Positions 2,257 to 8,274 of a DNA stretch of 8,274 nt are shown in pieces. Made by a program: the position numbers and the translations under genes. Within the stretch, counting starts at the first letter, position 1, and each line of letters begins with the position of its first letter. Source of the DNA: Gammaproteobacteria bacterium (GTDB lineage Bacteria; Pseudomonadota; Gammaproteobacteria; Competibacterales; Competibacteraceae); contig JAIFNF010000236.1 of the NCBI GenBank assembly GCA_020047885.1, positions 1-8,274 on the forward strand, read 5' to 3'. The notes under the pieces were generated by a model. That model had not been told where the DNA came from. It did no database searches and was given only the letters and a program-made list of their open reading frames with translations.

Positions 2257-2259
2257 TTA

Positions 2260-3040
2260 CCAGCGGCCGGTCACCGGGACATTGCCCGGCAGACCGAAGC
2301 CGGTCTCAGGCTGGGCGGGGTTCTTTTCGACGCACTGGTCGATCGTACAGCCATCCCAGGCTTGGTTGCCATGGAGGTCGAAGTACCAGCTACCGTCGCG
2401 GTAGACGCCGATGCGGGTGACGCCGTCGCCGACCCAGTCACCGGCCACGGGCATATCGCCGGGCGCGCCGAAGGCGTTTTCCGCGCAGCCGTCGATTTCA
2501 CAACCATCCCAGGCCTGGTTGCCATTCCGGTCGAAGTACCAACTGCCGTCCCGGAACACGCCGATGCGGGTCACGCCGTCGCCGACCCAGTCGCCGACGA
2601 CCGGGCGGTCGCTGGCCTGGCCAAACTGACCGCAGCGGTCGAGGGCGCAATCGTCCCATTGGCCGTTGCCGTTGGCGTCGAGGTACCACGCGCCGTCCCG
2701 GAACACGCCGACGGTGGTGATCCCGGAGCCAGTCCAGTCGCCGGCGACCGGTTGGTCGTCGGCCAGGCCGAAGCCGTCGATACAGTGGTCCACGTCGCAG
2801 CCGTCCCACTGGCCGTTGCCGTTGCGATCCAGGAACCAGCCGACCGGGGCGGGTCGGAACACGCCGATCCGGTCACGGTCGTCGTCGGCCCAGGAACCCA
2901 CGACCGGGCGGTCGCTGGCCAGGCCAAAGACGTGACAGGAATCCGTCGCGCAGCCGTCCCAGGTGCTGGTGCCATTGGCGTCGAGGAACCACCAGCCCTC
3001 GCCGCCGCGTTCGGCATCCCGTGGACGGAAGACGCCCATG
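2260..3040 (-). repeat. Five C-terminal repeats of about 51 residues (GVFRDGSWYFD...WDGC)
   Basis: Each unit reads roughly GVFRDGSWYFDxNGNxxWDGC, then a Cys four residues later (CATDSC, CDVDHC, CALDRC, CEIDGC, CTIDQC), then FGxxxDxPVxGDWxGDGxTR. At DNA level the units begin near 3034, 2863, 2707, 2560 and 2407, giving spacings of 171, 156, 147 and 153 bp. The DxNGN pattern suggests calcium binding and the period suggests beta-propeller-like blades; both are inferences. The last unit ends PVTGRW at the stop codon, so this is the natural C terminus. Confidence 0.85.
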
Positions 3041-5149
3041 GCGCTAAACGGCAACGCCGGTCACGGTCCGCGCCGCGGTCAGGGTGACCGGGCAGGTTAG
3101 TACGGTGCCAGTACAGGCGCCGGTCCAGCCCAGGAAGGTAGCCCGGGCCGCGGGGGTGGCGGTCAGCGTCACGCGAGTATCCTGCGGGTAGCTTTCGGTG
3201 CAGTCGGCTCTGCACTGGATGCCCGCCGGGGCGCTGGTCACCGTGCCGGCCCCGGTGACCACGACTGTCAGCGAATAAACCGATGTGGCCTGGAACGTCG
3301 CCTGAACCTCGCAGTCGGCGGTGATGACCGCCGTGGTGTAGGTCGTCCCGGAGAGCGTCCCGCCGCAGCCGCTGACCGCTGCCAGGGTGTACCCGGTATC
3401 AGCAGTGACCATGAAGATCGCCATCGCGCCATCAGCCACGGTTTGCGGCGTCGCGGGGTCAATCCCGCCGCCCATCCCTACCGTGGGTGTGACGGTGTAG
3501 ATGCGGTCGCTGACGCCCATCTGGACGGTGAATGCCTGCTCGGTCAGGATATTTTCCAGACCCTGATCGACGACCTGGAGGGTGAAGGTGTAGGTTCCCG
3601 CTTGCGTTGGCGTGCCGCTGAGGGTGGCGGTTGGTTGGTCGGGACGGGCCGCGAGCAGTTCCAGACCGGGCGGGAGGCTGCCGGTGGCCATGCCCCAGGT
3701 GTAGGGACCAACGCCGTTCCCGGCGGTGAGGACGCCTTCATAGGCGACGCCGACCTGGCCGGTGGCAGGCAACGCGCCGGTCAGGACAAAGTTGGATACG
3801 GCGGGACCGGCCAGGTTAATAATCACCCCGTTAGCCGTCAGGTCATTATCGCCATAACCACCATCCTGGATCGTGTAGGTCACGATGTTGCCGGCGATCG
3901 TCGCTCCATCCAGCACATACCAGTCAGGTAAGTCATTCTGCGCGGTTTGCGCGTATTTCCGGGGTGTCGGCTGACCCCCGTCGGGTGGACGATATGTTGT
4001 CAAGACGCCGGTCGGCGGTGCCCCCTCCGACCCCGGCTCCTTGGACTCAGGAGGGTAGGCTATGGTCATTATCACGATGGTTCCCACCTCAACGCCCTCG
4101 ACTTTGAGGTTCACCGCCCCGTAGGGGTCACCGTGGGGGTGGTCTGCTGGACCTGGAAGCTCGCCGTCACCGTACAATCCGCCATCACCGCCGCCGTGGT
4201 GTAGGTGGTTCCCGACAGGGTACCGCCGCAGGTGCCGCCCACCGTCCCGAGGTACCCGCTGTTCGGGGTGACCGTGAACGTGGTTGTACTGCCGTGATTG
4301 ACCGTTTGACTCGTCGGGCTGATGCCGCCACCGGTTCCGGCAGTCGTGGTCACGGTGTAGCTTTGAATACTGGCGCTGCAACTGGCGGTCGTGCCGTTGC
4401 TGCTACCGCTGCAACTCCACAACCACGGGCCAGTACCACTGACGGCTGAGGGACTGCCTACAGCGCAGAGATCGGTTGTCGGGGCGTTGGTGAAGGTTCC
4501 ATTATGGGCACTGCCGCAGGCGCCGTTGACCGGCGTGGAACCACCCCCGCCGCCACCGCCGCCTCCCGACGCCGCATTCGTCAGGCTGAAACGGCCGTTG
4601 CTGGCTCCGGTGGCACTGACTGTGACTGGATAACTACCCGCTGTGGAATTGGCCGTAGCCGTCACGCTGGCCGAACCGCTGGCAATCATAAACGGGCTAC
4701 CGACCAGGACGGCGCTGGCCCCGCTGCCAGGGGCGGTGAAAGCAACTTTGCCGCCATTGACCTGTCCTGCGCCGGTCGCAGTGACGGTCACTGCCAGCGG
4801 ATGGGCAAACGCGGTGCTGATCGTCGTGCTCTGGTTGTCGCCGCCGGTCTTGGTGAGGATGAAGCCTTGCGATTCATACGCGCCGATGTCGCAAGTCGCC
4901 CGGGTAACCCCGCGCTGATCGGTTGCCGGACACCCGCCATTGGTTCCGGCATTAATCGCCGGACTGCCCGGCAGCAGCGGGAAGGTCTGGGTCGAACCGG
5001 TGTAATTGCCTAATGCGCTGAGCAGCGGGTTGGTGTTGCTCAACGAACCGCTGGTTGAGCCGAAGCCGCACGTCGTGCCGTCGTCGAGATTGTTCCCGCC
5101 GGTGGTGATCGTGCCGGAACAGTTCCCGCCGGTGGTATTGCCCGCCAGC

Positions 5150-6179: not shown

Positions 6180-6764
6180 AAACTGTCCCGGTTCCATCGA
6201 CGACCACGCTGGGTGCGGTGCCGAAGCTGATGGTCTGCGCGGCCGGGGTCACCGTGAAGGTCTGTTGAACCTCTGGGGCGGCATTGTAGTTGTCGTCGCC
6301 CGCCTGGTTGGCATTGATGGTGCGAGTGCCGGCAGCCTGGAAGCTAACTTAGCTGTCGGTCAGCATGCAGATGGCGCTGCTGGCCGGGGCAATGGCGAAA
6401 ATGACTGGGAGTCCGGAGGTGGCGGTGGCGGTGGGCGTATAGGCGGGGCCGTCCACCGTAGCGCTGGGGGCCGTGGAGGTGAAGCTGATGGTTTGCGCGG
6501 CCTTGAGGGTGAAGGTGGCAATAACTGTTTGATTAACCGCGGTGTTCACCGTGCATGGGTTGTCATTCTCGGATAGGCAACCCGTCCAGCTACTGAAGGT
6601 GGAGTTGGCGTCGGGGGTGGCAGTGAGGACAACCTGCCCCGCCGTGAGCATCTCATGGGCGAAACTGCCCTTGCAGTACTGGCCACAATCCACGCCGGGC
6701 AGGCTGCTGGCCACCGTGCCGCTACCCCCGCCCGCCTTGGTCACAGAAAGCAAAGCATACTGTC

Positions 6765-6787
6765 CGCCGCGCACCAACCGCACGGCG
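6765..6787 (-). promoter_or_regulatory. Imperfect palindrome at the 3' edge of the VR, candidate IMH element
   Basis: On the minus strand the arm CGCCGTGCG is followed by loop GTTGG and arm TGCGCGGCG. This gives a nine-position stem with seven Watson-Crick pairs and two G-T wobbles. It covers the point where VR and TR similarity ends, which is where the IMH (initiation of mutagenic homing) site sits in studied DGRs. The TR counterpart has lost one base and the second arm, as expected for an IMH* that cannot itself be a target. The function is inferred. Confidence 0.45.
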
Positions 6788-6881
6788 TTGCTGTTGCCCC
6801 TGTTGTTGGCCTGTTCGTCACCCTTGAGGAAGTAAACGACCAACGCGGCGTTGGCAAAGGGGGCAGACGGAGACGCCGACC
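6769..6881 (-). repeat. DGR variable repeat (VR) inside the DUF1566 domain
   Basis: These 113 bp align with the TR at 7579-7702. They start with GGTCGGCGTCTCCG and end with GCCGTGCGGTTG(G)TGCGC on the minus strand. Over the 35 codons compared I count 21 differences, 14 of them at TR adenines (14 of 31 adenines changed against 7 of 74 other bases). Examples of TR to VR: AAC to GTC, AAC to CTC, AAT to TTT, AAC to TAC. The encoded segment runs from WSASPSAPF to GNSNAVRLVR, in the exposed ligand-binding part of the C-type-lectin-like fold. There is no stop codon within it. Confidence 0.9.
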
Positions 6882-7299
6882 AGAAATAAGCGTTGGGCGT
6901 ATTGGGGAACACCGTGGCGTTGATCGCCGGATTAAAATTACGCCGTTCGACAATCGACGCCAGTTCTTTCTGATTGGGCAGCCGCCAGTCGCTGAAAGTG
7001 GCGAAGGTTCCGAGCGTCGGCCCTCGTTCTAGAGCCAGCGACCAAGTGTAGGTGTCAGCCACACCGGCATTGTCCACGCAAGTGCTTCCATTCCAATCCC
7101 AGCCCTCGTGGCAGCGCTTCCAGGTCAGGCCAGTTTTTTTGTGGTAGGCGGTGCCATTGACATCGTCCAGGGTGAAATCACTGGTGGGCGTGGTCGCCAG
7201 TACCGCCGGGTTTTCATCCGCCCACACCGTGGCCGCGGGCCAGGCCAGCAACACCAGCGCCCAGCCAAGAACCAGGCAGCGAAGAAGCAGTGTCTTCAT

Positions 7300-7578
7300 G
7301 AAGAGGATTCCTGTGGAGTCGAAGAAGAGCGACCTCGGCCAGACGACAGGGATGTCCGGCCGGAGGGCGAGAAGAGGATTCGGGGAGGCGCTGGTCGCCA
7401 GATCAGCCGCAGCACCCGTCGCTTGAGACCGCCGCGCAGGTCGCCTTCCTCGGCGATGAAGCGGTGGGCGATGCCCAGGCGGCGCAGTTGCCGACGCAAG
7501 CCAGCCAAGGCGTTCAGCGGCAAGCGAAACACTTGGGCAAAACCCGGTCGGGCAGCGGGTTTGGCGCGGGGGCGCAGG
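7300..7578 (-). other. Spacer between the TR and the target gene
   Basis: In the usual DGR order the reverse transcriptase gene would begin here; no RT motif such as (Y/F)xDD is visible in any frame. One minus-strand frame holds a coding-looking stretch at about 7398-7545 (LPLNALAGLRRQLRRLG, then IAHRFIAEEGDL), but I cannot assign it to a family. The last bases contain the ribosome binding site of the target gene. No clear promoter is seen. Confidence 0.5.
7540..7562 (-). terminator. Hairpin with short T run just after the TR
   Basis: On the minus strand AAACCCG (7562-7556) pairs with CGGGTTT (7546-7540) around a nine-base loop, with one more T at 7539. It begins 16 bases after the TR ends. 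It could close the TR RNA as a weak intrinsic terminator, or form part of the structured flank that DGR reverse transcriptases use for priming. This is inferred from position and pairing only. Confidence 0.35.
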
Positions 7579-7702
7579 GCGCACAACCGCACGGCGTTGT
7601 TGTTGCCCTTGTTGTTGCCCTTGTTGTTGGCGTTGTCGTTACCATTGTTGAAGTTCACGTTCCACGCGTTGTCAGCATTGGGGGCATACGGAGACGCCGA
7701 CC
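7579..7702 (-). repeat. DGR template repeat (TR)
   Basis: A 124-bp repeat matching the VR. On the minus strand it is dominated by AAC and AAG codons between GC-rich edges, the classic TR composition in which adenines are the bases replaced during error-prone cDNA synthesis. It would be transcribed as a non-coding RNA, reverse transcribed and copied into the VR. It contains two tandem copies of AACAACAAGGGC where the VR has one, which explains its extra length (124 minus 12, plus the one base missing at the IMH* edge, gives 113). It lies between the Avd-like gene and the target gene on the same strand. The open reading frame running through it is an effect of its composition. Confidence 0.9.
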
Positions 7703-7845
7703 CTGCCGACCGGATGGCCCACGCACTTGGGCGGACGAACGTCCCACCGGAGTCCCAGCCCGATGGTAGGAACCCCTGCATCGTTTTCCCCGAAATCGGG
7801 GGGCGTGGGGGCACAGTGATCTCGGCACGCGCCATCCCCGCAACA
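7703..7845 (-). other. Avd-TR intergenic segment, likely leader of the TR RNA
   Basis: These 143 bases separate the ancestral end of the Avd gene from the TR. They contain a hairpin at 7788-7801 (CCCCG and CGGGG around a four-base loop) and a direct repeat of GTCCCA at about 7741-7756. In studied DGRs this segment belongs to the structured TR RNA. I see no gene or convincing promoter in it. Confidence 0.45.
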
Positions 7846-8236
7846 TTAACTTTGCGGTGACGACTGCTGACCGGCCCGCCGCTGCCACCCGCCGCTCTGT
7901 CGACCCAGGGCGACCGCCCGTTCGGCGATCACCTGAAATTCGCTGAAACTGGCAAACGCTCAGATCTCCTTACCCCATTGCACGATCAGCTTGAGATCGT
8001 CCACCGCCAGAACCAGCCGTTCGATCTGCTGCGCCCGGTCATCACGGGCATGGCAGGCGCGCAGGATCAAGCGGCACACCCCCATCGCCTGATGGCGCAA
8101 ATCGCTGCCCAAGGTGTATTTGTGGTAACGCGGAAAGCGGCGCACTGCTTCTTCGACCAGCCGTAACCAGGCGAGTCGCGTCACGCCACAGGGTCTGTTG
8201 ATTGAGACCGGAACCTTTTCCAGAAGAGGTCGCCAT
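7846..8236 (-). pseudogene. avd: Avd-like four-helix-bundle protein, DGR accessory factor, broken
   Basis: The core reads RLVEEAVRRFPRYHKYTLGS, then LRHQAMGVCRLILRA and VLAVDDLKLIVQWGKEI. This is the helical pattern of the Avd/23S-IVP-like four-helix-bundle family that binds DGR reverse transcriptase and TR RNA. The open frame ends at TGA 7962-7960. The same frame continues beyond it for 37 codons with the usual family tail (AFASFSEFQ, then AVALGRQSGGWQRR) to TAA at 7848-7846, so the TGA is a nonsense mutation. At the other end the current frame has only a TTG at 8259 without a ribosome binding site. ATG 8236-8234, in another frame, has AAGGA ten bases upstream and reads NQQTLWRDATRL before joining the core if one base near 8155-8175 is removed. 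That frameshift is inferred; the TGA is directly visible. A shortened product cannot be excluded. Confidence 0.75.
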
Positions 8237-8274
8237 TCAGCAAATTTCCTTAAAGCCAAAGTTCAAAATCACTG

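Follow-up and report, generated by a model that had tools for sequence, protein, structure and literature searches.

Diversity-generating retroelements (DGRs) copy the RNA of a template repeat (TR) with errors at adenines, and the cDNA replaces a variable repeat (VR). Degenerate DGRs have already been described (PMC3521204, PMC7517822, PMC10907252). In the cases given in the cited passages of the DiGReF survey, reverse transcriptases (RTs) are inactivated by stops, frameshifts or insertions and VR/TR differences are confined to adenines, hence recent inactivation; its authors expect random mutations to accumulate in an inactivated DGR (PMC3521204). In Thiohalocapsa PB-PSB1, key machinery is missing or pseudogenised through transposon or MITE-like replacement, while complete loci are present in the same genome (PMC10907252). 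In cyanobacteria, remnant TR-VR homology has been reported, and the authors suggest that components are removed once an optimal variant has been found (PMC7517822).

The whole stretch of DNA analysed here (the window, 8,274 nt) preserves recognisable TR, VR, avd and RT sequence in the ancestral order, although with lesions, and is very probably a dead DGR with a genuine TR/VR pair and an RT that has been nearly all deleted. As in the DiGReF cases, the RT is inactivated, TR and VR are still recognisable, and the mutation build-up predicted there (PMC3521204) is seen in the window, which differs in having lost most of its RT to deletion and in its accumulated non-A differences. With the Thiohalocapsa loci (PMC10907252) it shares a gammaproteobacterial host and missing or pseudogenised key machinery; unlike them, it shows a simple internal deletion in which no transposon or MITE-like repeats were noticed, and it is known from one window. 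The cyanobacterial remnants, in which the diversified gene outlasts the machinery as in the related genome G398, belong to another phylum, and an RT-tail remnant is absent from the cited passages (PMC7517822). Set against those passages of the three papers, the new part is the anatomy of the deletion together with a series of compared loci whose RTs were lost through internal deletions, the 3' end being spared in most.

TR, VR and target are all read on the minus strand. The AAC-rich TR (7584..7702) has its 3' end cut at CGGTTG (7584), and the VR (6764..6881), with a conserved G/C-rich 3' end, lies inside the Lcl_C/DUF1566 domain of the downstream target gene, target2. TR positions 7702-7584 align with 107 nt of the VR (6881-6775) with a local score of 116, whereas 100 dinucleotide shuffles of the remaining strand reached 33 at most. 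With one 12-bp gap, mismatches occur at 14/31 template adenines and 7/76 other bases (Fisher p 6.6e-5), reproducing the count of 14/31 and 7/74 made by hand in an earlier sequence-only reading; with free gap placement, they occur at 13/31 and 6/81 (p 5.3e-5). The gap reflects one 12-bp unit fewer in the VR than in the TR, which carries a tandem 2 x 12 bp (AACAACAAGGGC) at 7605..7628 on the minus strand (positions counted by hand). The VR retains its 3' end GTGCGGTTGGTGCGCGGCGG down to 6764, of which the TR keeps the first part only. The pair proposed by that reading is thus borne out by the adenine specificity of the mismatches and a score above the shuffles; an even spread of mismatches over the template bases was not seen in the exact alignment.

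Target2, from its start to the first in-frame stop, occupies 6349..7299 (minus) and contains PF07603 Lcl_C (E 6.9e-29), in agreement with the DUF1566 domain named earlier as the DGR target. Its frame is interrupted by two in-frame stops, TAA at 6351-6349 and TAG at 5367-5365, and then runs on to TGA at 4113-4111. At the opposite edge of the window, CAGTGA (8269..8274, minus) aligns with the end of target1 in the related genome G416 and is probably the final codon and stop of target1, an upstream target gene the rest of which lies beyond the window.

Of 369 genomes sampled from the class, G080 and G211 were nearest by DEAD-box helicase (84% identity). Among the 39 genomes from the family of G080, 2 gave an avd match (E<=1e-10), 8 an RT match (E<=1e-20) and 11 a match to window DNA 6349-8274. 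Several of these relatives carry broken versions of the target1-avd-TR-RT-target2 locus. What remains in G416 (91% identical to window DNA over 388 bp) is target1 with its VR, the back half of avd, a TR that breaks off after some 70 bases, and the RT tail. In G398, target1 and the RT tail are fused and a target2 frameshifted at its VR comes next; a search of this genome with the TR gave two VR copies only. G395 has two targets with avd, TR and RT all absent between them, G399 keeps target1 together with about 70 bp across the start of avd, and in G415 the front of avd is fused to target2 (contig C74). The best RT of the family, on C133 of G415, adjoins a TR-like stretch; its 5.1-kb contig yielded no VR. 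In G398, the VR of target2 is closely followed by an ORF (L082:9473-9844, plus strand) whose motif points to an IS200/IS605-like transposase. The target2 of G395 (L083:2478-4364, minus) is intact, with 629 aa, and ends in an IPTLSVWG motif. This motif resembles that of exosortase-sorted proteins, a hint that the DUF1566 targets are surface proteins.

The adenine bias recurs in these relatives. Nine VRs (that of the window and eight of relatives), a non-independent set chosen for similarity to the TR region, were aligned to the window TR; eight, including seven of the eight from relatives, have an excess of mismatches at A (p<=0.0017), and the ninth, on C35 of G395, has p 0.11. The bias is strongest in G399 (19/29 A vs 9/83 other), G395 VR2 (18/28 vs 10/81) and G398 VR2 (14/31 vs 3/80). 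The TR of G416, aligned to the window TR as a control, has no significant A bias (3/20 vs 3/58, p 0.17). Without any DGR, a lectin-domain segment of biased composition might simply have been duplicated, as could be argued from the seven non-A differences between TR and VR and from the DUF1566-like paralogues in several genomes of the family. The probability of such a duplication is nevertheless close to nil, given the recurrence of the bias, the avd homologue and RT tail that adjoin the repeat, and the codon positions of the 14 A-site changes in the window, all of which fall at positions 1 or 2 and none at position 3.

On the other side of the TR, the dead DGR retains an avd pseudogene (7846..8236, minus). 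It starts at ATG 8236 in one frame and goes on in another after a frameshift near 8170-8160; an in-frame TGA follows at 7962-7960, beyond which Avd sequence resumes to the natural end at about 7846. Over 75% of the ORF used as query, it shares 91% identity with P0001, an intact protein of 129 aa. Because its profile matches are below the curated cut-offs (DivGenRetAVD, E 1.1e-5; bAvd, E 0.008), as are those of the intact protein for both profiles, the name leans on position too. The Avd-like gene noted earlier beside the template is thus an Avd homologue, lying upstream of the TR, but not an intact gene. The avd-TR spacer (7703..7845, minus) is 138/147 identical to G416 (q426-572, 7849-7703). 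In the back half of avd, window and G416 differ at 4, 4 and 10 sites by codon position, mostly at the third, which suggests that avd was still under constraint after the two parted and weakly favours separate losses in them.

Directly after the TR comes a C-terminal remnant of the RT, about 64 codons long (7391..7583, minus). Its translation is 56% identical over 57 aa to residues 446-502 of a 521-aa RT (P0123) that matches PF00078, and its best score is 159, the highest of 300 shuffles being 69. The RTs compared match PF00078, and no DGR-specific model was matched. By BLASTP the tail matched 10/11 RTs tried (the exception being that of L087) and in a second search 6/6, and it was also found by tblastn; one of the matched RTs (P0114) belongs to L001, a locus with adenine-biased VRs. 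The window cassette lacks a complete RT: about 445 codons (about 1.3 kb) are gone, with about 60 C-terminal codons left. The earlier statement that similarity stops sharply at both edges of the repeat must accordingly be amended on the RT side, where the edge is the TR meeting the RT fragment and not a natural homing boundary.

The TR, VR1 and VR2 are repeats able to confuse an assembly, so that the TR might have been wrongly joined to the RT tail in a genome with an intact RT. Such an artefact is most improbable: the RT tail is unique sequence, the string common at the junction is just 6 bases, RT tails without RT bodies occur in separate assemblies too (G416, G398, L006), and avd and target carry lesions as well. 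A real deletion being preferred, one common to the window and G398 was considered, as their RT-side edges lie within about 10 bp. It is disfavoured by the G398 bases before CGGTTG, which fit RT (ADRL in P0124) and not TR, and by G398 VR2, which departs from the TR at other adenines than the window VR; separate RT deletions are preferred on these few bases. Retention of the tail as a peptide was also considered, but it is in frame with the preceding sequence in 3/7 tail loci (window, G398 and L020), near chance, and out of frame, as read by eye, in the other four (G416, L006, L016 and L036).

A scan of the genome collection for avd gave 45 loci, and their RT content was assessed by tblastn with 16 RTs. 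Both RT ends were matched near avd in 28. The C-terminal part alone was matched in four (L006, L016, L020 and L036), the N-terminal part alone in one (L031), and both ends with a shortened middle in one (L029). The remaining 11 gave no RT match with the 16 RTs, five of them with <2 kb of downstream sequence. L001, L002 and L004 have an intact avd-TR-RT between two DUF1566 targets. They resemble the window in gene order, TR/VR type, and homologous Avd and RT C-terminus; they differ in having a complete RT and adenine-only or nearly adenine-only pairs, with 0-2 non-A mismatches in the best pair. All seven viral contigs with avd have RT matches and A-biased pairs, the best pair having 1-2 non-A mismatches. 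L006, from Halochromatium salexigens DSM 4395, has the window-like layout of avd, shortened TR and RT tail. L010, one of the other six of these 11, has an A-biased TR with two VRs. An opposite-strand ORF (L010:10847-11440, minus) lies between its TR and target2, at the expected place of the RT, and by its motif resembles an IS200-type transposase. In L020, an open frame at about 9971-10600 (plus) joins the Avd front in frame with the RT C-terminal region at a QLGN common to both, and may be a chimeric protein or a mere deletion scar. In P0005, avd is fused to a TR-like stretch.

Among the 28 loci matched at both RT ends, all but L040 and L044 gave an A-biased pair (26 loci). In the best pair of each, 0-4 non-A positions differ, 3/51 (5.9%) being the highest rate, and the A-bias filter itself favours low counts; some second pairs are higher (L012, 5/101; L021, 5/101; L003, 6/111). 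The window, with 6/81 to 7/76 (7.4-9.2%) and a 12-bp indel, has the highest rate in comparison with best pairs, and its lower count of 6 is equalled by the second pair of L003. Because its 6-7 non-A mismatches stand against 0-4 in the best pairs of RT-bearing relatives, homing in the window lineage probably stopped long ago, and the sequence-only reading, which thought homing probably not recent, looks right. Because the best pairs of the RT-truncated L006 (0/56) and L029 (0/59) have no non-A mismatch, their RT losses are apparently recent; that of L010 has 4/88. The DiGReF authors apply the same logic of non-A drift to inactivated DGRs (PMC3521204), and non-A mismatches may work as a clock since the last homing.

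It has been proposed for the degenerate Thiohalocapsa loci that they are served in trans (PMC10907252), and the window might likewise be a non-autonomous, RT-less cassette used by another DGR of the same genome. G398 indeed has a second, separate DGR (L120, on C53) with adenine-only pairs (13/25 and 14/25 A, 0 other), and G399 has two further ones with adenine-only pairs (L121 and L122). Together with L126 (G381) and L124 (G382) of the same family, these three have A-biased repeat pairs close to RTs; their best pairs show no non-A mismatch, except for one in L124, and the loci are probably active. The evidence here covers 8,274 nt of the window organism, which leaves room for an RT elsewhere in its genome. 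Service in trans is nonetheless very unlikely, given the broken avd, the lost TR 3' end, the 12-bp length mismatch and the 6-7 non-A differences. Moreover, an RT match at E<=1e-10, present in 6/16 genomes searched (that of L031 left out), was not found in G416, the nearest locus-bearing genome, or in Halochromatium (G006), G395, G417 (L016) and G012 (L020).

The window locus is therefore best read as a relic unable to work in cis, because its RT is reduced to a tail, its avd is broken and its target has stops, three defects that the earlier reading had missed. We infer that the element was once active in this lineage, in what order its lesions arose and that it lost function, along the following course. 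The ancestral order would have been target1 - avd - TR - RT - target2, which is intact in relatives. While the RT was active, the TR would have been copied with errors at A and the cDNA placed into the VR. An internal deletion, perhaps via the CGGTTG common to both junction sides, would then have removed about 1.3 kb and fused the TR 3' end with the last ~60 RT codons. Homing would have ended with the loss of the RT, after which avd may have acquired its frameshift and stop, the TR its additional 12-bp repeat unit and the target its stops, while TR and VR drifted. The present VR would be a frozen allele, diversified in the past.

Taken together, the loci form a readable series of DGR death, from complete loci through Halochromatium (apparently recent) and the window (older) to G398, where the adenine-scarred VR alone is left, and this series is material for asking why hypermutation is abandoned. 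It is conceivable, though unlikely, that internal deletions repeatedly remove the RT in this lineage but leave its 3' end because this carries the expression signals of the downstream target; deletion would then be a lock-in step that freezes a useful lectin variant, and not decay alone. New in this would be the sparing of the RT 3' end, removal after an optimal variant being already suggested in the cited passages of PMC7517822. Such a reading is weakened by three points: the window's own downstream target is broken, the target2 of G398 is frameshifted at its VR, and in a search by way of avd, deletions leaving the left side in place are the more likely to be picked up. More generally, a TR/VR pair beside an Avd-like gene should not be taken as evidence that a DGR works.

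No plasmid match was found for 975 bases, no phage match for the target protein, and no Rfam family at the gathering score. Elsewhere in the window, repeats of ~150 bp at 2257-3054 (minus) encode VFRDGSWYLDANGNGQWD-like units, with no Pfam match at E<=0.1. An inverted repeat with 34-nt arms, 82% complementary, lies at 2-77 and adjoins a DUF6763 gene.
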